Shown here piece by piece: positions 4,748 through 51,412 of a DNA stretch of 64,000 bases. A program made the position numbers and the translations under genes. The notes beneath the pieces were generated by a model. The model was given only the letters and a program-made list of their open reading frames with translations, was not told the origin of the DNA and ran no database searches. Origin of the DNA: Curtobacterium sp. ZW137 (GTDB lineage Bacteria; Actinomycetota; Actinomycetes; Actinomycetales; Microbacteriaceae); NCBI RefSeq assembly GCF_003762905.1, contig NZ_RJKS01000002.1:852039-916038 (forward strand). Reading direction: 5' to 3'. Positions within the stretch are counted from its first letter, which is position 1. Every line of letters starts with the position of its first letter.

Positions 4748-4826
4748 CCCGGCGCCGGCTGGCGCCGCCCCGCCCCGCTGACAGCTGCCCCACGCGGCTG
4801 ACCAGGAGTTTCGCTCGAAGGGGGTC

Positions 4827-4873
4827 GAATCGCGCGTTGGTGGTCGTTCCTTCCGACCCCCGACGCGCGATTC
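4827..4873. repeat. intergenic hairpin, GAATCGCGCG family, copy 1
   Basis: 4827-4846 and 4854-4873 form a 20-bp stem with two mismatches. The right arm, read on the minus strand, is GAATCGCGCGTCGGGGGTCG, identical to the left arm of the hairpin at 21858-21900. It lies 80 bases after the lacI stop and may act as its terminator. Confidence 0.6.
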
Positions 4874-5214
4874 CCCTTCCCGGTGCGGGCGCGATGGGAA
4901 GGAACGCGCGTGGGGAGCGCGAGCGCGCACGATGCGCGGAGCGCAGAGCCGCGCGATGCGCGCAGCGCACGATGAGCCGGAGCGCGCGAGCGCGCCATGA
5001 CAGGAACCGGCGGGCGGCGGCGCGGACGCGGGCACAGGGCCGACGGGAGGCTCTGGCCGGGGCCGCCACGAGCCTCCGGTCCGGCCCGTTCCACGCGGGG
5101 CTGGCGGCGACCGCAGCAGCCGACACGCGGGCAGCGCGACCCCAGCCCGGGGGCCACCGGACGCCCCCTTCCGTGCGGAGATGCGGTCCGTTACCGAAAC
5201 GCGACCATACGGAA

Positions 5215-9502: not shown

Positions 9503-9536
9503 TCCCGTTGGTGGGCGGTGGTCGCGACGGGCGCGC

Positions 9537-9574
9537 CGGACGGGAGGCACGGGTCGGGTCCGCACCGAGCCTCC
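9537..9574. repeat. GGACGGGAGGC intergenic element, degenerate copy
   Basis: CGGACGGGAGGC (9537-9548) is opposed by GAGCCTCC (9567-9574), giving a partial hairpin between the convergent chvE and hepT ends. It shares its left arm with the perfect palindromes at 21941 and 36379. Confidence 0.55.
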
Positions 9575-9608
9575 AGGCCGGTGTGGGCCAGCCGGGCGGC
9601 GGGGGCCG

Positions 9609-9938
9609 TCACGCGATCCGGGCGCGCAGCCGCCGCGCCGCGTCGCAGAGGTGCGGGACGTCCACCCGCGCCGTCCCGAGCACGATCGCCGGCGTCGTGT
9701 CGAAGTAGCGCCGCGTGAGCCGCTCCCCGAGCAGTGAGACGCGCGACCACGGGATCCCCGGCTCCCCCGCCGTCACCGCGACGGGCAGCATCCGCACGGC
9801 CTCGCCGATCTCGACCAGGCGCATCCGGACCGCGTCGTAGACCAGGTCCTCGGGCAGCGACGGCTGTGAGACGTACCGGTCGATCACCCCGCACGCGCGG
9901 ATGACGTCGTCGAGGCGCTCCCCCACGTTGCGGTTCAC
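9609..9938 (-). CDS. hepT: HepT-like toxin (DUF86) with a degenerate active-site motif
   Basis: 109 residues, all-helical, typical HepT length. HepT proteins are HEPN-type ribonucleases whose R-x4-H-x-Y motif is essential, and the partner MntA AMPylates the Tyr. Here the corresponding stretch reads LGERLTRRYFDT: the Tyr is kept, but the Arg is replaced by Gly and the His by Arg. The start overlaps the mntA stop as ATGA. Context and fold support HepT, while the missing residues suggest a weakened or inactive RNase. A GACGGGAGGC element follows the gene. Confidence 0.75.
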   Translation of the reverse strand: MNRNVGERLDDVIRACGVIDRYVSQPSLPEDLVYDAVRMRLVEIGEAVRMLPVAVTAGEPGIPWSRVSLLGERLTRRYFDTTPAIVLGTARVDVPHLCDAARRLRARIA

Positions 9939-10450
9939 AGCGCGACCGATCCGCGGACGACCTCGCGGCTCATCCCGTCCGCCGCGACGACGTCGACCCG
10001 GACGCCGAGGACCTGCTCGGCCGCGTCCTGGATCCGCATCAGCGCGAAGATCCCGAGGCCCGGGAGCAGGTCCACCATCAGGTCGACGTCGCTGTCCGGC
10101 CCGTCCTCACCGCGCGCGACGCTGCCGAACAGCCGCGGGTTCCGGCCCCCGAGCCGGGAGATCACCTCGAGCAGCTCGGCGCGGTTCGCCGTCACCCGGT
10201 CGCGGAGCGGCGGCGGGTCGGCGACCGGTTCGAGGTCGATCACGGTCAGGAACCCCGCGGCGAGCAGGAGTCGCTGGAGCGCCGCGAGCGACGGCTCACG
10301 ACGACCGTTCTCGTACGTGCTGATGACGCTCTGCGTGACCCCGGCCCGGTGCGCGAGCTGGACCTGGGTCAGCTCGGCTCGGAGGCGGGCGTCACGGATG
10401 AGCTCGGCTGCTGAGAGGTGCGGCGCAGGCCGTGACGAGACTCCGGACAT
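9935..10450 (-). CDS. mntA: HTH-MntA fusion: XRE-type antitoxin with minimal nucleotidyltransferase domain
   Basis: 171 residues. The N-terminal part is a Cro/C1-type HTH (AELTQVQLAHRAGVTQSVIS, then TYENGRREPS). The C-terminal part is a minimal nucleotidyltransferase with RLFGSVARGEDGPDSDVDL, an intact GS-x10-D-x-D active site. Family knowledge: MntA neutralises HepT by adding AMP to its Tyr, and the HTH would allow autoregulation. The ATG at 10450 is preferred over a GTG at 10465. AGAAATTTC near 10471-10479 is an AT-rich near-palindrome that could be the operator. Confidence 0.82.
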   Translation of the reverse strand: MSGVSSRPAPHLSAAELIRDARLRAELTQVQLAHRAGVTQSVISTYENGRREPSLAALQRLLLAAGFLTVIDLEPVADPPPLRDRVTANRAELLEVISRLGGRNPRLFGSVARGEDGPDSDVDLMVDLLPGLGIFALMRIQDAAEQVLGVRVDVVAADGMSREVVRGSVAL

Positions 10451-14424: not shown

Positions 14425-14480
14425 ACGACGAGAACCGCCCCGCACCACGGAAGGCCGTGGTGCGGGGCGGTTCTCGTCGT
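14425..14480. terminator. strong bidirectional terminator
   Basis: 14425-14450 and 14455-14480 are perfect inverted repeats of 26 bases with a 4-base AAGG loop, placed between the convergent ends of the CopD-CtaG gene and the LAFTG peptide gene. It is the longest perfect stem in the window apart from the 21941/36379 family. Confidence 0.88.
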
Positions 14481-20386: not shown

Positions 20387-20424
20387 CGGACACCGCACCG
20401 CGCATCCGCGCGGTGCGGTGTCCG
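20387..20424. terminator. bidirectional terminator between adhC and the TetR gene
   Basis: CGGACACCGCACCGCGC (20387-20403) pairs perfectly with 20408-20424 across the loop ATCC. On the plus strand TTTC follows. It separates convergent genes. Confidence 0.85.
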
Positions 20425-21429: not shown

Positions 21430-21795
21430 ATGGCCTGGATCGTGCTGTTCGTCAGCGCCGCGCTCGAGACCGTCTGGGCGACGGCCCTTGGCGAGAGCCA
21501 CGGCTTCACCCGCCTGCAGCCGACGATCGTCTTCGCGATCACGATCGTGATCAGCCTGGTCGCGTTCGGGTATGTGCTCCGGCACGTCCCGATCAGCACC
21601 GCGTACGCGGTGTGGACCGGCACCGGGGCCGCACTCACCGTGCTGTGGGGCATGGCGACCGGCGCCGAGCCCGTCACGGTGCTCCGCCTGGTCTTCATCG
21701 CGGGCATCGTCGGGTGCGTGGTGGGACTGAAGCTGCTCCCGGCGCGGCCGGCAGCGCACGCCGCGTCGGCACCCGCGGCGCGGGATCGCGCGTAG
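21430..21795 (+). CDS. small multidrug resistance (SMR) transporter subunit 2
   Basis: 121 residues. It has the same four-helix plan as its neighbour: SAALETVWATALGESHGFT with the essential Glu, and STAYAVWTGTGAALTV. It differs by a longer Ala-rich C-terminal tail (RPAAHAASAPAARDRA). It starts one base after the stop of the first subunit, so the pair is surely co-transcribed and probably forms an antiparallel heterodimer. The WTGTGA motif (rather than WTGIGA of Gdx) leaves drug versus guanidinium export open. Confidence 0.86.
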   Translation: MAWIVLFVSAALETVWATALGESHGFTRLQPTIVFAITIVISLVAFGYVLRHVPISTAYAVWTGTGAALTVLWGMATGAEPVTVLRLVFIAGIVGCVVGLKLLPARPAAHAASAPAARDRA

Positions 21796-21900
21796 TCAGT
21801 CGAATCGCGGGTCGGGGGTCGAATCGCGGGTCGGGGTCGAATCGCGCGTAGTCAGTCGAATCGCGCGTCGGGGGTCGAAAGTTCCGACCCCCGACGCGCG
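21785..21900. repeat. tandem TCGAATCGCG repeats ending in a perfect hairpin
   Basis: The block begins inside the SMR2 stop region. A 25-base segment (21785-21809) is repeated exactly at 21841-21865, and the core TCGAATCGCG occurs four times. It ends in a hairpin in which GCGCGTCGGGGGTCG pairs with its complement at 21885-21899. The hairpin arm equals the right arm of the 4827-4873 element. Confidence 0.7.
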
Positions 21901-21940
21901 TTTCCGCTTCCCATCGCGCGCGGCGTGGGTGGGAACCACC

Positions 21941-21988
21941 GACGGACGGGAGGCCCGGTGCCAGCTGGCACCGAGCCTCCCGTCCGTC
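21941..21988. repeat. 48-bp near-perfect palindrome of the GGACGGGAGGC family
   Basis: 21941-21964 and 21965-21988 are inverted copies with a single mismatch and no loop; the centre is GCCAGCTGGC. It ends 12 bases from the stop of the minus-strand monooxygenase gene. Nearly the same sequence lies at 36379-36424. It may act as a bidirectional terminator. Confidence 0.8.
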
Positions 21989-22000
21989 ATGGAGCTGCGA

Positions 22001-23140
22001 TCAGACCGACGCTCCGGTCCACTCGTCGACCGCGGCCACGTGGTCGCTGCCGACCGAGCCCGCTGCGCGCGCCGCGGCCACACGCTCCGCGTGCGTCGGC
22101 GGGTTCGACGGCACGTCGGCCGGACGGCCCTCGTCGTTGATCTTGCGGAGCTCGGGGACGATGTCCTCGGCGAGGATGTCGATCTGCTCGAGCACCGTCT
22201 TGAGCGGCAGTCCGGCGTGGTCGACCAGGAACAGCTGGCGCTGGTAGTGCCCGACGCTGTCCTTCATCGCGGCGTACCGGTCGATGACCTGCTGCGGGGA
22301 GCCCACGGTGAGCGGGGTCTGCTGCGTGAAGCCCTCCATCGACGGCCCGTGCCCGTAGACGGGGGCGTTGTCGAAGTACGGACGGAACTCGTCGATCGCG
22401 TCCTGCGAGTTCTTGCGGGCGAAGAACTGTCCACCGAGGCCGACGATCGCCTGGTTCGCGGTGCCGTGACCGTAGTGCTCGAAGCGCTGGCGGTACAGAC
22501 CGACCATCTGCGCGGTGTGCTCGATCGGCCAGAAGATGTTGTTGTGGAAGAAGCCGTCGCCGTAGTACGCGGCCTGCTCCGCGATCTCCGGTGTGCGGAT
22601 GGAGCCGTGCCAGACGAACGGCGCGACACCGTCGAGCGGACGCGGGGTCGAGGTGAAGCCCTGCAGCGGCGTGCGGAACTTGCCCTGCCAGTTCACGACG
22701 TCGTTCTCCCAGAGCTGGCGGACGAGCGCGTAGTTCTCGATCGCCAGGTTGACGCCCTGCCGGATGTCCTGCCCGAACCACGGGTAGACCGGGCCGGTGT
22801 TGCCGCGGCCCATCATCAGGTCCATGCGGCCGTCGGAGATGACCTGGAGCATCGCGTACTCCTCGGCGATGCGCACCGGGTCGTTCGTCGTGATCAGGGT
22901 CGTCGAGGTCGAGAGCGTGATGTGCTTCGTCCGACCGGCGAGGTACCCGAGCATCGTCGTCGGCGAGGACGCGACGAACGGCGGGTTGTGGTGCTCACCC
23001 GTGGCGAAGACGTCGAGACCGGCCTGGTCCGCGTGCTCGGCGATGGTGAGGATGTCGCGGACGCGCTGCGTGTCGTCCGGCGTGGTTCCCGTGGTGGGGT
23101 CGGTCGTCGCGTCGCTGACCGTGAAGATACCGAACTGCAT
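22001..23140 (-). CDS. LLM class flavin-dependent oxidoreductase (luciferase-like monooxygenase)
   Basis: 379 residues of the bacterial luciferase-like TIM-barrel family. MQFGIFTVSDATTD is the first strand, LDVFATGEHHNPPFVASSPT carries the conserved His pair, and GRMDLMMGRGNTGPVYPWFG follows. From memory it resembles the CE1758-type subgroup. Such enzymes use reduced FMN (or F420) to oxygenate or reduce a substrate that cannot be inferred here. The ATG at 23140 has AGGAGGC at ideal spacing, which rejects a longer reading to 23206. No FMN reductase gene is adjacent. Confidence 0.88.
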   Translation of the reverse strand: MQFGIFTVSDATTDPTTGTTPDDTQRVRDILTIAEHADQAGLDVFATGEHHNPPFVASSPTTMLGYLAGRTKHITLSTSTTLITTNDPVRIAEEYAMLQVISDGRMDLMMGRGNTGPVYPWFGQDIRQGVNLAIENYALVRQLWENDVVNWQGKFRTPLQGFTSTPRPLDGVAPFVWHGSIRTPEIAEQAAYYGDGFFHNNIFWPIEHTAQMVGLYRQRFEHYGHGTANQAIVGLGGQFFARKNSQDAIDEFRPYFDNAPVYGHGPSMEGFTQQTPLTVGSPQQVIDRYAAMKDSVGHYQRQLFLVDHAGLPLKTVLEQIDILAEDIVPELRKINDEGRPADVPSNPPTHAERVAAARAAGSVGSDHVAAVDEWTGASV

Positions 23141-32420: not shown

Positions 32421-32433
32421 GGGCCTCCCGTCC
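32421..32433. repeat. GGACGGGAGGC element, single arm
   Basis: GGGCCTCCCGTCC (minus: GGACGGGAGGCCC) lies 10 bases after the stop of the minus-strand hydrolase. The rest of the 150-base gap toward 32293 holds weaker GAGGCC/GGCC pairings but no clean palindrome. Confidence 0.5.
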
Positions 32434-34500: not shown

Positions 34501-35408
34501 CAGATCCGCCCTTCGTCCGTGGTGGGCAGGTGCGGGTCGACCTCGCCGGGGTGGTGGTGCTCACCGGTGTGGTCGTGCGTCTCGTTCGCGCCGACGATCA
34601 CGATCCGCCCCATCGTCCGGACGACGTCGACGGGCGTGCCGTACAGGTCGGAGAGGACGTCGGCACGGAGCACCTCGTCCGGGGAACCGATCCGGAACCG
34701 GCCGCCCGCGATGTAGAGGACCCGGTCGACGACGTCGAGGATCGGGTTCACGTCGTGGGTGACGAACAGCACCGCGGCGTTCTGCTGCCGGCGCTGGCGG
34801 TCGATGAGCTCGGTGACGCCCCGCTGGTGGCGGAGATCGAGCGAGATGAGCGGCTCGTCGCAGAGGAGCAGGGACGGGTCCGCGGCGATGGCCTGCCCGA
34901 CGCGGGTGCGCTGCTGCTCGCCGCCGGAGAGCTCGGCGACGGGGGCGTTCGCGAACGCGGTGGCGCCGACCTCGTCGATGATGCGGTCGATGCGCTCCCG
35001 CTCGGCCTTCCGCTCCGGCCGGATGCCCCAGCGCGAGCCGGTGACACCCTGCGCGATCATGTCGCGGGCGCGGAGCGGCGTGCCGGACTCCATCAGGCGC
35101 TGCTGCGGGATGTAGCCGATCTTCCGGTGGCCGCGGCGGATGGGCTGGCCGAGGAACGACATCGTCCCGCTGGTCAGGCGCTGCTGCCCGAGCACCGTCT
35201 TCAACAGGCTGGTCTTGCCCGCACCGTTCGGCCCGAGCACCGCGAGGAACTCCCCCGGCCGGACGTCGAGGTCGAGGCCGTCCCAGAGCTTCCGCTCGCC
35301 GTACGACAGGCCGGCGTCCCGGAGTGCGAGCACGGCGGAACCGCCACTGCTCGGAGCAGTGGCGGTTCGCGTCGGTTGCTGTCGCGTCTGGTCTCGGGTG
35401 GTGGTCAC
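34500..35408 (-). CDS. znuC: zinc ABC transporter ATP-binding protein with His-rich C-terminus
   Basis: 302 residues. Walker A is LGPNGAGKTSLLKTV, signature ELSGGEQQRTRVGQAI, Walker B SLLLCDEPLISLD, and the switch His is in VTHDVNP. The C-terminal tail (ETHDHTGEHHHPGEVDPH) is rich in His and Asp and could hold zinc or sense it, as in other ZnuC proteins. The GTG at 35408 overlaps the znuA stop as GTGA; an earlier in-frame start would run into znuA. The leading Thr/Gln-rich 30 residues are not part of the ABC fold. Confidence 0.9.
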   Translation of the reverse strand: MTTTRDQTRQQPTRTATAPSSGGSAVLALRDAGLSYGERKLWDGLDLDVRPGEFLAVLGPNGAGKTSLLKTVLGQQRLTSGTMSFLGQPIRRGHRKIGYIPQQRLMESGTPLRARDMIAQGVTGSRWGIRPERKAERERIDRIIDEVGATAFANAPVAELSGGEQQRTRVGQAIAADPSLLLCDEPLISLDLRHQRGVTELIDRQRRQQNAAVLFVTHDVNPILDVVDRVLYIAGGRFRIGSPDEVLRADVLSDLYGTPVDVVRTMGRIVIVGANETHDHTGEHHHPGEVDPHLPTTDEGRI

Positions 35409-36316
35409 TTCGCCAGTGCCGCCTTCACCGCGTCGATGTTCGCCTGCTGCCACGAGACGTAATTCTTCCCCTTCGGGAGGGTCTCGGTGACACCGACCAC
35501 GGGGACGTCGTTGTCCTCGGCGGCCTTCTTGACCTGTTCGGTCTCCGGACTCGAGGTCTGGTCGTTGTACGCCAGGAGCTTCGCGGTGCCGCTCGTGAAC
35601 AGCTTGAGCGTGTCGTTGAGGGCCGCTGGCGGGACGTCGTCGCCTTCTTCGATCGCCTCGGAGAAGTCCTCGGGGGTGACGTTGTCGAGGCCCATCGCGT
35701 CGAACAGGTACCCGGGCACCGGCTCGGTGTACGCCACCTTCTCGCCGTCGTGCTGCTGCTTCAGGGCTGCGGTCTGGGACTCGAGGTCCTCGAGCTTCGT
35801 GGTGAGCGCGTCGGCGTTCTTCGCGAAGGTGGCCTCGTCCGCGCTGTCGAGTGCGCCGAGGCGCTTCGACACGTCGGCGACGAGCTTCACCATCGTCGGG
35901 TAGCTGTAGAAGACGTGCTCGTTGAACTCGGCGTCGCCGCCCTTGTCCAGGCCGGAGAGCTTCACCACGTTGATGGTGTCGGCCTTCGTCGACGACGAGT
36001 CCGCGAGGGTCGTCATGAAGTCGTCGTAGCCGCCGCCGTTCTCGATGAGCAGGTCGGCCTTCGACACCGCGAGCTGCGTCGTCGCGCTGGACTCGAACGA
36101 GTGCGGGTCCTGCGAGGGGTCGTCCAGGATGCTCGTGACGTCGACGTGGTCGCCGCCGATCGTCTCGACGAGGGATCCGTAGACGTTCGTCGAGGCCACG
36201 ACCTTGATCGTGCCGTCGCTGTCGTCGTTCGTCGAGGCCGAGGAGGTCGCGCAGCCGGACAGGGCGAGCGCGGCGGCACCCGCGATGAGCGGGAGGGCGA
36301 GGAGGCGGTTGTGCAT
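35405..36316 (-). CDS. znuA: zinc-binding lipoprotein of the ABC transporter
   Basis: 303 residues. LLALPLIAGAAALALSGCAT is the lipoprotein signal with a lipidated Cys. The cluster A-I fold shows metal ligands in DPHSFESS, NEHVFYSYPTMVK and AYNDQTSSPE, with an acidic/His pattern for zinc. The ATG at 36316 is seven bases from TACGGT and is preferred over the GTG at 36322. It is first in the operon, just downstream of the Zur box, so its transcription should rise when zinc is scarce. Confidence 0.9.
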   Translation of the reverse strand: MHNRLLALPLIAGAAALALSGCATSSASTNDDSDGTIKVVASTNVYGSLVETIGGDHVDVTSILDDPSQDPHSFESSATTQLAVSKADLLIENGGGYDDFMTTLADSSSTKADTINVVKLSGLDKGGDAEFNEHVFYSYPTMVKLVADVSKRLGALDSADEATFAKNADALTTKLEDLESQTAALKQQHDGEKVAYTEPVPGYLFDAMGLDNVTPEDFSEAIEEGDDVPPAALNDTLKLFTSGTAKLLAYNDQTSSPETEQVKKAAEDNDVPVVGVTETLPKGKNYVSWQQANIDAVKAALAK

Positions 36317-36337
36317 GGTCACAACCGTAGGGCTAGA

Positions 36338-36352
36338 TGATAACGATTGTCA
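36338..36352. promoter_or_regulatory. Zur box
   Basis: TGATAACGATTGTCA is a 15-bp palindromic match to the actinobacterial/enterobacterial Zur-Fur type box. It lies 9 bases upstream of the TACGGT -10 (36329-36324) of znuA, where Zur binding would block polymerase. Confidence 0.82.
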
Positions 36353-36378
36353 AAACCAGTCTCACGGCTGGTCTGGGA

Positions 36379-36424
36379 ACGGACGGGAGGCACGGTGCCA
36401 GCTGGCACCGTGCCTCCCGTCCGT
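36379..36424. repeat. 46-bp perfect palindrome of the GGACGGGAGGC family
   Basis: Every base from 36379 to 36401 pairs with 36402-36424; the centre is GCCAGCTGGC. It ends 12 bases from the stop of the minus-strand PTS IIC gene and separates it from the zinc operon promoter. A nearly identical element lies at 21941-21988, also 12 bases after a stop. Confidence 0.85.
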
Positions 36425-36436
36425 CGCGAAGTCGCG

Positions 36437-37705
36437 TCAGTCCTTGGTGGCCGCTTCGATCGTGTTCTCCGCGATCGAGTCCTCCTCGCGACCAGGCGTC
36501 CGGAGGTTCCACTTCCGGATGACCCAGCCGAACAGGAAGTAGTAGATCGCCGCGTACCCGAGGCCGATCGGGATGAGCCAGATCGCCCCGTCGGCCTTGC
36601 CGAAGTTCAGCACGAAGTCGATCGCACCCGCCGAGAAGGAGAACCCGTCGTGGATGCCCAACGCGTTCACGAGGGCGAGCGAGGTCCCGGTGAGCACCGC
36701 GTGGATGATGTAGAGCGGGAACGCAACGAACATGAACGAGTACTCGAGCGGCTCGGTGATGCCCGTCACGAACGAGGTCAGTGCGGCGGAGAGCATGATG
36801 CCACCGACGAGCTTGCGGTTCTGCGGCTTGGCGTTGCGCCAGATCGCGAGCGCACCGGCGGGCAGCGCGAACATCATGATCGGGAAGAAGCCGGTCTGGA
36901 AGATGCCGGCGGTCGGGTCACCCGCGAGGAAGCGCGGGATGTCGCCGTGGACGATGTCACCGGCCGCGTTCGTGAAGCTGCCGAGCTGGAACCACGGGAA
37001 GAAGTTGAGCAGCTGGTGCAGACCGATCGGGATGAGCATGCGGTTCGCGAACCCGAAGATCCCGCCACCGATGACGGCGTTGTCCGCGACGGCCTGGCCT
37101 GCCGCGGTCAGCGCGATGTCGAAGTAGCGGTACACGAACGACATGAGCACGGCGATGACGAGCCCGGCAGCGGCAGTCAGGATCGGGACGAGACGTCGGC
37201 CCGAGAAGAACCCGAGGAAGTCGGGCATCTTCGTACGGTGGAAGCGCTGCCACAGGTTCGCCGCGACGAGACCCATCACGATGCCGCCGAGGACGCCGAA
37301 GTTGATCGTCGCCTGGTCTCCGTTGGCGTCCTTCACCCCGGCGAGGACGATCGGGGACATGACCGCGAACACCTCGTACATGACCATGTAGCCGACGACC
37401 GCGGCGAGGGCCGTCGTGCCGTCGGACTTCTTGGCCCACCCGATCGCGATGCCGACGGCGAAGAGCAGCGGCAACCAGGTGAAGATGGCCTGACCGGCAG
37501 CGGAGATGACGCCCGCACCGGTCTCGAACCCGGGGATGGCGCCGAGCAGGTCGGGCTGGCCGATGCGGTTCAGGATGCCCGCGGCCGGCATGACCGCGAT
37601 CGGCAGCAGCAGGCTCCGACCGAGCCGCTGGGCGTTCGCGAAGAGCCGGCTCTGCTTCTTCGGCGTCTTCTTCTCCGGCACATCCGTGGCAGCAGTCGTG
37701 CTCAT
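36437..37705 (-). CDS. nagE: PTS system IIC component, glucose/N-acetylglucosamine family
   Basis: 422 residues. RSLLLPIAVMPAAGILNRIG at the start, IPIGLHQLLNFFPWFQLG, and GITEPLEYSFMFVAFPLY with the sugar-contacting Glu, are typical of the GlcNAc/glucose IIC family. No IIB or IIA is fused; those are separate genes divergently transcribed at 37883. The set resembles the split GlcNAc PTS of Streptomyces. AGAGGAA precedes the ATG at 37705. GlcNAc rather than glucose is inferred partly from the DasR-like regulator next door. Confidence 0.88.
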   Translation of the reverse strand: MSTTAATDVPEKKTPKKQSRLFANAQRLGRSLLLPIAVMPAAGILNRIGQPDLLGAIPGFETGAGVISAAGQAIFTWLPLLFAVGIAIGWAKKSDGTTALAAVVGYMVMYEVFAVMSPIVLAGVKDANGDQATINFGVLGGIVMGLVAANLWQRFHRTKMPDFLGFFSGRRLVPILTAAAGLVIAVLMSFVYRYFDIALTAAGQAVADNAVIGGGIFGFANRMLIPIGLHQLLNFFPWFQLGSFTNAAGDIVHGDIPRFLAGDPTAGIFQTGFFPIMMFALPAGALAIWRNAKPQNRKLVGGIMLSAALTSFVTGITEPLEYSFMFVAFPLYIIHAVLTGTSLALVNALGIHDGFSFSAGAIDFVLNFGKADGAIWLIPIGLGYAAIYYFLFGWVIRKWNLRTPGREEDSIAENTIEAATKD

Positions 37706-50424: not shown

Positions 50425-50456
50425 GGTCACGTCCGTCCCGGTGCGGCAGTGCACCT

Positions 50457-50494
50457 GACGGGAGGCTCGGTGCGGCCCCGCCGCGGGCCGCACC
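50457..50494. terminator. hairpin with GACGGGAGGC element between purB and a LysR gene
   Basis: GACGGGAGGC (50457-50466) is followed by GGTGCGGCCC (50469-50478) pairing perfectly with 50485-50494. It lies between convergent genes. Confidence 0.7.
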
Positions 50495-50497
50495 ACC

Positions 50498-51412
50498 TCA
50501 GGTGGTGACGTCCAGGGCGGTGGCGACCAGGGCCTCCAGGACGGTGCGGACCACGGGACGGACCATCCGGTCCGGGCGGACCAGCGCTTCGATCCGGCGA
50601 CCGGCGCGGACGTCGGCCAGCTCCGCGAGGCGGAACCGGCCGGGTGCCCGCGTGCCCGAGGTGTAGCGCGGGACCAGCGCGACACCGTGTCCAGCGGCGA
50701 CCAGGTTCTCGATCACCGGCAGGTGGATCGTGCGGAACGTGACCTGCGGCGGTGCGTCCGTCGCGGCTGCCATCGCGGTGAGCACGCGGTCGATCGGGTA
50801 CCCCTCCGGCACACCGATCCACGTCTCGTCGACGACCTCATCGATCCGGACGCGCTCGTGACCGGCGAGCCGGTGGCCCTCGGGGAGGGCGACGTCGAGC
50901 GGTTCCCGGAGGAGCGGCACCGTCGTCAGCGATGCGCGGTCCGGAGCGGGCGCGCCGTCCGGGCGGTGGCCGACGACGACGTCGTGGTCGGCGGCGAGCG
51001 GGGCGAACTCGTCCTCGCTGACGTCCACGTCGGAGAGCACCAGTTCGACGCCGGGGTGCTCACGCATCCTGGTGAGGAGACCGGGGAGCAGCAGTTCCGC
51101 GGCGGACGGGAAGATCGCCAGGTCCACCGTCCCGGATGCACCGCCGAGGTGCTCCTGCCAGGCCGCGTCGACGGTCGCGATCGCCGTCGCGACGCCGGTG
51201 GCGAGGCCCGCGAGGACCCGGCCGTCCTCGGTCAGCCGCACGCCGCGGCCGACCCGCTCGACCAGTGCGACGCCGACCTGGCGCTGCAGGGTCTGCAACT
51301 GCTGCGACACCGCACTCGGCGTGCGGTGGGTGGCTGCCGCGACGGCGGTGACCGATCCGCGCTCGTCGAGTTCCCGGAGGACCGGCAGCAGTGCGATGTC
51401 GAAGGCGACCAT
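50498..51412 (-). CDS. LysR family regulator
   Basis: 304 residues. The HTH reads RGSVTAVAAATHRTPSAVSQ then QLQTLQRQVGVAL. The effector domain has VDLAIFPSAAELLLPGLLTR and AAGHGVALVPRY. It is divergent from an EamA exporter, which it probably regulates. TAGGTT six bases before the ATG gives a leaderless start. The effector is unknown. Confidence 0.88.
   Translation of the reverse strand: MVAFDIALLPVLRELDERGSVTAVAAATHRTPSAVSQQLQTLQRQVGVALVERVGRGVRLTEDGRVLAGLATGVATAIATVDAAWQEHLGGASGTVDLAIFPSAAELLLPGLLTRMREHPGVELVLSDVDVSEDEFAPLAADHDVVVGHRPDGAPAPDRASLTTVPLLREPLDVALPEGHRLAGHERVRIDEVVDETWIGVPEGYPIDRVLTAMAAATDAPPQVTFRTIHLPVIENLVAAGHGVALVPRYTSGTRAPGRFRLAELADVRAGRRIEALVRPDRMVRPVVRTVLEALVATALDVTT

Follow-up and report, generated by a model that had tools for sequence, protein, structure and literature searches.

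Several kinds of repeated or U-poor hairpin have been described at bacterial gene ends. In Streptomyces, U-less hairpin ends have been compared with I-shaped terminators, and, according to the same report, ends without a U-tract may be either I-shaped or the trimmed ends of Rho-terminated transcripts (PMC8269248); PMC12207403 likewise describes Streptomyces hairpins that are long, stable and poor in U. In Neisseria and Pasteurellaceae, DNA uptake sequences arranged in inverted pairs form terminators (PMC1852404), and families of repeated intergenic stem-loops have been catalogued in 40 genomes (PMC2267715).

The hairpin family of Curtobacterium described here shares features with each of these. 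Like the I-shaped, or 'HS-U-lack', ends of GC-rich Actinobacteria, as excerpts of PMC8269248 and PMC12207403 present them, it consists of a stable GC-rich hairpin past a gene, with no U-tract, in a high-GC genome; unlike them, it has one sequence, of fixed stem length and with homogenised variants, in use at about a hundred gene ends, and it is known here from sequence alone. The uptake-sequence terminators are the nearest precedent for one sequence reused at many gene ends; they too are built of a conserved oligonucleotide in inverted pairs that form gene-end hairpins genome-wide (PMC1852404, in part), whereas the Curtobacterium arms are almost never single, the copies are far fewer and a U-tract is lacking. 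REP, BIME and REPIN elements and the CGTC-tagged palindromes, as excerpts of PMC3733652 present them, are likewise short, palindromic, intergenic, lineage-specific and of high copy number; the Curtobacterium family differs from them in its perfect stem, in its preferred place just past the stop codon and in having no Y1_Tnp/RAYT, no tag and no arrays in the host. The families of PMC2267715 are also repeated and intergenic, but, as far as excerpts of that survey go, Curtobacterium is not in it, and site conservation and homogenisation are not its topics. No account of this family was found in the open-licence literature searched, and a term search of PMC12306157 returned no mention of Curtobacterium. 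What is unusual is that one sequence stands at about a hundred gene ends, that its copies look homogenised yet keep their places, and that its foot is reused in another genus of the family, g35.

Two palindromes of the window and their weaker relatives

The window is a stretch of 64,000 nucleotides (G000:C2:852039-916038) of the 3.9-Mb genome of Curtobacterium sp. ZW137, hereafter the host. It holds two full members of the family, and the original prediction, which had described them as a 46-bp perfect and a 48-bp near-perfect palindrome lying 12 bases from the stop codon of a minus-strand gene, proved right on every one of these points. The 46-bp palindrome (36379-36424), an A..T variant that scores 75.4 bits on each strand, is perfect and folds as RNA at -49.1 kcal/mol; the 48-bp one (21941-21988; 76.2 and 75.1 bits) is 96% self-complementary and folds at -51.3 kcal/mol, its one imperfect pair being U.G in the sense of the monooxygenase gene. 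Both fold 9-10 s.d., about 30 kcal/mol, below shuffles. The minus-strand genes to the right of the palindromes end at 36437 and 22001, so that exactly 12 nt separate each stop codon from its palindrome (36425-36436 and 21989-22000, minus strand). Upstream of the first hairpin lies a PTS EIIC gene (36437-37705, minus strand; Pfam PF02378), formerly named nagE, at whose end relatives also have the hairpin; since the next gene, ZnuA-like (35405-36322, minus strand), runs in the same direction, the site is a tandem one. Upstream of the second hairpin is a luciferase-like monooxygenase gene (22001-23140, minus strand), formerly labelled LLM oxidoreductase, whose convergent neighbour is a small multidrug resistance gene (21430-21795, plus strand).

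Four degenerate relatives had been proposed as well, all next to gene 3' ends, and this held only in part. The family model finds two of them: a diverged member between convergent genes, 29 nt from the minus-strand stop (9535-9582; 47.1 and 44.4 bits), and a more diverged one in a long tandem gap (5038-5085; 28.9 and 28.0 bits), which is not beside a gene end because it lies 293 nt from the upstream stop. A third, between convergent genes, is a doubtful and marginal member with one arm joined to another hairpin (50453-50503; 14.1 bits, E 0.72). The fourth, proposed at 32421-32433, has no match to the covariance model and drops out: it is a lone arm (32423-32433, minus strand) without a hairpin, its partner having 5 mismatches, and the fold of the stretch is matched or bettered by 181 of 200 shuffles. 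Rfam places only a tRNA above threshold within the 64-kb window, and all 25 matches listed over 36300-36500 fall below their gathering scores.

Between the 46-bp palindrome and the ZnuA-like gene there is also a TGACAATCGTTATC-like box (36339-36358), kept just past the hairpin in many relatives, which resembles a Zur-type operator.

Copy number and distribution

Copies of the 19-nt arm GGACGGGAGGCNCGGTGCC number 64+63 in the host genome, against 0+0 for the reversed pattern; together with the depth of the two folds, this excludes chance. The host carries 39 exact 42-bp palindromes, 93 with up to 3 mismatches, and 138 hairpins with the core GGAGGCNCGG-N8..30-CCGNGCCTCC, for which the reversed control gives 0; the covariance-model search of this genome gave at least 150 scored matches. 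Across the genus, the 42-bp form (up to 3 mismatches) is present in 65 of 66 genomes, with 33-125 copies in 63 of them and 4 and 5 in the other two (G238 and G239); G163 has none, yet carries 8 of the looser core. The name of the genus is taken from a palindrome scan of named genome contigs, in which 78 of 80 titles among the matches listed are Curtobacterium (80 titles of at least 114 stretches). A 3.2-kb contig titled as a Cellulosimicrobium MAG (L033) has two exact copies and is probably a misbinned Curtobacterium contig.

Beyond the genus, a family sample of 199 genomes has the exact 42-bp form in none of its 195 non-genus members, and the form with a free middle appeared once among the 244 other genomes of a 249-genome sample, with its reversed control once in another. 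Other genera of the family carry 0-2 copies of the looser core, g35 excepted, where three genomes have 66, 23 and 34 (controls 1, 1 and 0); controls elsewhere give 0-2 matches, save for G129, with 8 control matches and no core match. Class-wide, the looser core is present 0-5 times in each of the 295 other members of a 296-genome sample. Covariance-model matches at E<=0.001, with 24 candidates scored per genome, occur in 24 of 249 family genomes and in 11 of 85 genera, and outside Curtobacterium they are mostly few and weak. The genome-wide count called for by the original prediction thus bears out a dispersed, lineage-specific family of mutual copies.

The 46-mer is also found on two Microbacterium plasmids (97.8% and 93.5% identity) and on one Curtobacterium plasmid (97.8%). 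The two former, of Microbacterium sediminis (L363) and M. paraoxydans (L365), have the palindrome 14 nt past the same SDR gene, and the proteins encoded upstream have identical accessions; palindrome and gene seem to have moved together into another genus. A phage origin was rejected: no exact 32-bp core was found in viral contigs and the 46-mer had no blastn match in phages.

Position, conservation and structure

The gene context was read from 69 host-genome stretches around copies, chosen by sequence alone, which cover 74 of the 138 host hairpins (about half; arms with up to 3 mismatches); genes were called by a small codon-usage script, so that the calls are approximate, and these were checked against three NCBI-annotated plasmid places only. 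Among the 74 sites, 41 are convergent, 30 tandem, 2 divergent and 1 is inside a called gene; allowing 5 mismatches in the arms gives 80 sites (43 convergent, 31 tandem, 2 divergent, 4 inside genes). The same distribution is seen at 151 sites of named relatives, fetched by the exact palindrome: 91 convergent, 55 tandem, 2 divergent and 3 at contig edges. Hence 71 of 74 host sites and 146 of 151 in relatives are convergent or tandem, while about 30% of all intergenic sequence in the window lies in divergent gaps. Measured from the nearest stop, the 42-bp form is most often 13-16 nt away (28/71 host sites; 65/149 in relatives), tandem host sites (30 of the 74) keep the same spacing to the upstream stop, and on the three plasmids, as annotated by NCBI, the 46-mer lies 14, 12 and 14 nt from a stop. 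The enrichment at gene 3' ends and the terminator-like character that had been proposed are thereby supported.

The spacing is in part general to gene-end hairpins, since other strong hairpins at host gene ends show the same preference more weakly (11/68 at 12-15 nt, vs 26/74 for the Curtobacterium family). Room for a hairpin exists at 38 gene ends of the window, and 21 of these carry a strong or a family hairpin, 3 of them from the family, a hairpin between convergent genes being counted for both. Strong hairpins of other sequences stand at 18 of the 38 by a simple score, the longest with 26-bp arms; examples are those at 14425-14480 and 20387-20424 and at the gene ends 29857 and 60634, among others. 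The flanks CGCGACCAC and GTGGTCGCG pair no better than shuffles beyond their first 2-3 positions; a larger palindrome including the stop codon was thus discarded, and the flanks are a motif only.

The strain comparison that the original prediction had proposed shows that both window copies keep their places. The PTS gene is present in 64 of 66 genus genomes, and, in the 50 genomes in which the region past it was followed, all 50 have a model match within about 110 nt of the stop; 5 of these matches are weak (25-35 bits), the hairpin being degenerate, replaced by another hairpin or interrupted. In 43 of 50 genomes the end of the luciferase-like gene has a match, which mostly sits at the usual position; in a few genomes it lies 70-240 nt away, beyond other insertions. 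Of the seven genomes without a match, two have an interrupted or truncated locus (L252, L265), two have lost or half-lost the copy (L307, L310), and three are distant ones (L311-L313) where what follows the stop looks like coding sequence. As both gene ends keep the hairpin in nearly all species, these two copies are not recent insertions. At the two gene ends followed, no clean empty site was seen, and none with a target duplication.

Some of these loci, all downstream of the PTS or the luciferase-like gene in relatives, contain further elements. One structured unit of roughly 55-65 nt lies inside the left or right arm of the hairpin in L216, L224, L252 and L265, and a second, of similar length, inside the arm in L250, L258, L269 and L272, with a GGGAGG repeat bordering the L269 unit. 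A word search through 1.8 Mb of loci places these units only inside the Curtobacterium hairpin (4 + 2 loci), two further loci having been identified by eye; it looks as if the gene-end hairpin were the target of both.

Variation within the stem keeps the pairing. In an alignment of family copies (113 rows, 109 distinct), 12 of 22 pairs have changed on both sides, amounting to 144 such cells vs 43.7 when shuffled, and covariation scores 0.194, vs 0.068 shuffled and at most 0.074 with slid partners; one pair position shows all four Watson-Crick pairs. The orthologs of the two gene ends show the same: 49 cells changed on both sides vs 13.3 at the PTS gene (43 distinct rows) and 29 vs 9.1 at the luciferase-like gene (28 distinct rows). 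The former alignment covers 44 of 50 loci (omitting L216, L223, L224, L233, L235 and L279) and the latter 33 of 50 (omitting the 7 without a match and L246, L250, L258, L261, L269, L272, L302, L303, L305 and L308). In all three alignments the share of paired cells is inflated because rows were picked for arm resemblance. When broken pairs are read in the sense of the upstream gene, G.U exceeds A.C at tandem sites (23 vs 7, p 0.005), the counts at convergent sites being 16 vs 9 (n.s.). In the PTS and luciferase-like ortholog sets, the G.U:A.C counts are 27:17 and 14:8 over the full stem (both n.s.), and 13:8 (n.s.) and 8:1 (p 0.04) over the inner 18 bp. The covariation and the G.U excess at tandem sites modestly favour selection acting at the RNA level.

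No U-tract follows the stem: the next 10 nt contain about 2.0 T on average, mostly as isolated T (longest run 1). These are thus not canonical intrinsic (Rho-independent) terminators. What does recur is GGTCG, positioned 7-8 nt past the 42-mer on both strands (11/72 and 33/147 sites on the sense side, 11/72 and 40/147 on the antisense side; background 0.0042 per position). It is absent from the equivalent places past 58 other hairpins and from both window palindromes. Our guess is that it might be a pause or release point.

Genome-specific variants, the hairpin foot and competing explanations

Copies within a genome share sequence variants, and the variants favoured differ from genome to genome. 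One exact 42-mer is common to 14 of 73 host sites. The variable pair is C..G at 27 of the 47 host sites with intact inner arms and G..C at one; G..C is found at 10/10 sites in G031 and at 6/10 in G105, among the first sites listed. In G199, 19 of 45 listed sites have GGTACC in both arms, in copies identical over about 42-46 bp with unrelated flanks, and in the host no site of 74 has it in both arms and 2 have it in one. Nine of the 19 G199 sites were compared with their orthologous gene ends in the host: all nine have a hairpin within 260 nt of the stop, none has GGTACC in both arms and one has it in one arm, the host stretches having been fetched for having the hairpin, which biases its presence and not the variant. 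One relative (L040, titled C. salicis) has GGTACC in common with G199 at one of these sites. These variant patterns, taken among the sites listed, indicate that positions persist and that the sequence is shared within a genome, for which a gene-conversion-like process would be the simplest account. Gene-end hairpins are thus linked to concerted evolution, with places kept through the genus and new compensated variants common within a genome; because place-keeping copies share such variants, something seems to copy the 46-bp palindrome onto its counterparts.

All together, we consider it probable that we are dealing with a genus-specific family of long, U-less 3'-end hairpins, copied, homogenised in each genome and acting as candidate terminators. 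Each copy would be transcribed within the mRNA of the upstream gene, and from both strands when it lies between convergent genes; the predicted fold of the transcript, a stem of about 22 bp capped by a 4-nt loop, would most likely stop RNA polymerase without a U-tract, in the manner of the 'I-shaped' kind, leaving a protected 3' end. The copies would descend from one sequence and be homogenised in each genome by a process resembling gene conversion, and selection would keep their structure and position. Termination would not need the sequence of this family, since many other strong hairpins follow genes in the same genome. Action in both directions, if it takes place, would make the copies two-way terminator candidates for actinobacterial constructs.

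A long perfect stem without a U-tract would also suit a barrier at the 3' end: Rho would end transcription further on, and the mature mRNA would come to end at the hairpin, either because it halts 3'-5' exonucleases or because RNase III cuts it. The covariation and the G.U excess fit this equally, and stem-loop ends without a U-tract may, according to an excerpt of PMC8269248, be the trimmed ends of Rho-terminated transcripts. The presence of GGTCG a few bases past the stem at part of the sites would fit a pause or release point slightly better, and we regard a pure barrier as a real, if minor, possibility. That convergent genes flank over half of the copies, with a perfect dyad identical on both strands, could instead point to DNA itself, that is, to a nucleoid, gyrase or cruciform site absorbing supercoils between such genes; DNA sites of this type are among the roles proposed for BIMEs. 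Nevertheless, the tandem sites with their unchanged spacing to the upstream stop, a G.U excess that follows the transcribed strand and varying positions that keep a pairing which a protein contact would not require make this improbable.

The original prediction had likened the family to REP or BIME elements, and a palindrome of this sort still being spread by a transposase, REP- or MITE-like, would account for dispersed identical copies with unrelated flanks, for species-specific variants and for the two doublets, 72-73 bp apart, seen in G199. Like REP/REPIN elements, the family is indeed short, palindromic and extragenic, and its copies number about 100 or more. The likeness goes no further, however: the proposed search for a RAYT/TnpA-like gene gave a Y1_Tnp match in 0/66 genus genomes vs 5/14 control genomes; no unpaired GTAG or CGTC tag was found, the conserved GAC and GTC beside the 42-mer pairing with each other; and the host has no BIME arrays, with one pair of copies less than 1 kb apart (149 bp) among 71 listed places. 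An element of the REP/BIME type was rejected for these absences. Moreover, the two gene ends followed keep their hairpin across the genus, and 10 of the 21 proteins encoded between six close copy pairs, when scanned, gave 7 non-transposase families and 3 without a match at the cut-off, so that ongoing transposition appears very improbable. Even less credible is a DNA uptake sequence that doubles as a terminator where it forms inverted pairs, on the model of Neisseria and Pasteurellaceae, although such sequences do form terminator hairpins, as an excerpt of PMC1852404 describes. This candidate was rejected because arms hardly ever stand alone (of 129 in 435,578 bases, 116 are partnered at the fixed distance); there are also about 140 copies per genome vs about 1,000.

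Genus g35 bears on a further reading, which concerns the foot of the hairpin. In 20 sites from one g35 genome (of its 66), the foot is GGAGGCGCGG/CCGCGCCTCC, this being what the search asked for, and the upper stem and loop vary in sequence and length. Nine of the sites are tandem (one overlapping a called gene end), 8 convergent, 0 divergent and 3 inside called genes; two of the last genes begin just before the hairpin, 31-34 nt past the end of another gene, and the third ends some 40 nt past the hairpin. With 66 such hairpins vs one control match, copying of whole hairpins is hard to fit to g35, and the foot sequence may, as these numbers suggest, matter by itself. Since g35 reuses the foot under free upper stems, we tentatively put forward, as a rather unlikely reading, that GGAGGCNCGG/CCGNGCCTCC would be the recognised signal of a sequence-specific 3'-end or termination system, be it a dedicated factor or a polymerase preference, in Curtobacterium and g35, with one fixed foot under varied upper stems in g35 and the whole hairpin homogenised by concerted evolution over about a hundred gene ends in Curtobacterium. 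For GC-rich bacteria, whose gene-end hairpins are known to lack U-tracts in many cases, this suggests that sequence information may lie in the foot of the stem and just downstream.

The window holds other features. A second repeat family, of inverted GAATCGCGCGT..GGTCGGAA units, is found at 4811-4905 and 21842-21936, which are 77% alike (also at 21776-21879), and units like these come after the hairpin in several relatives. A HepT-like gene overlaps the next gene by 4 nt (9609-10450), and the two may be a HEPN-type toxin-antitoxin pair.
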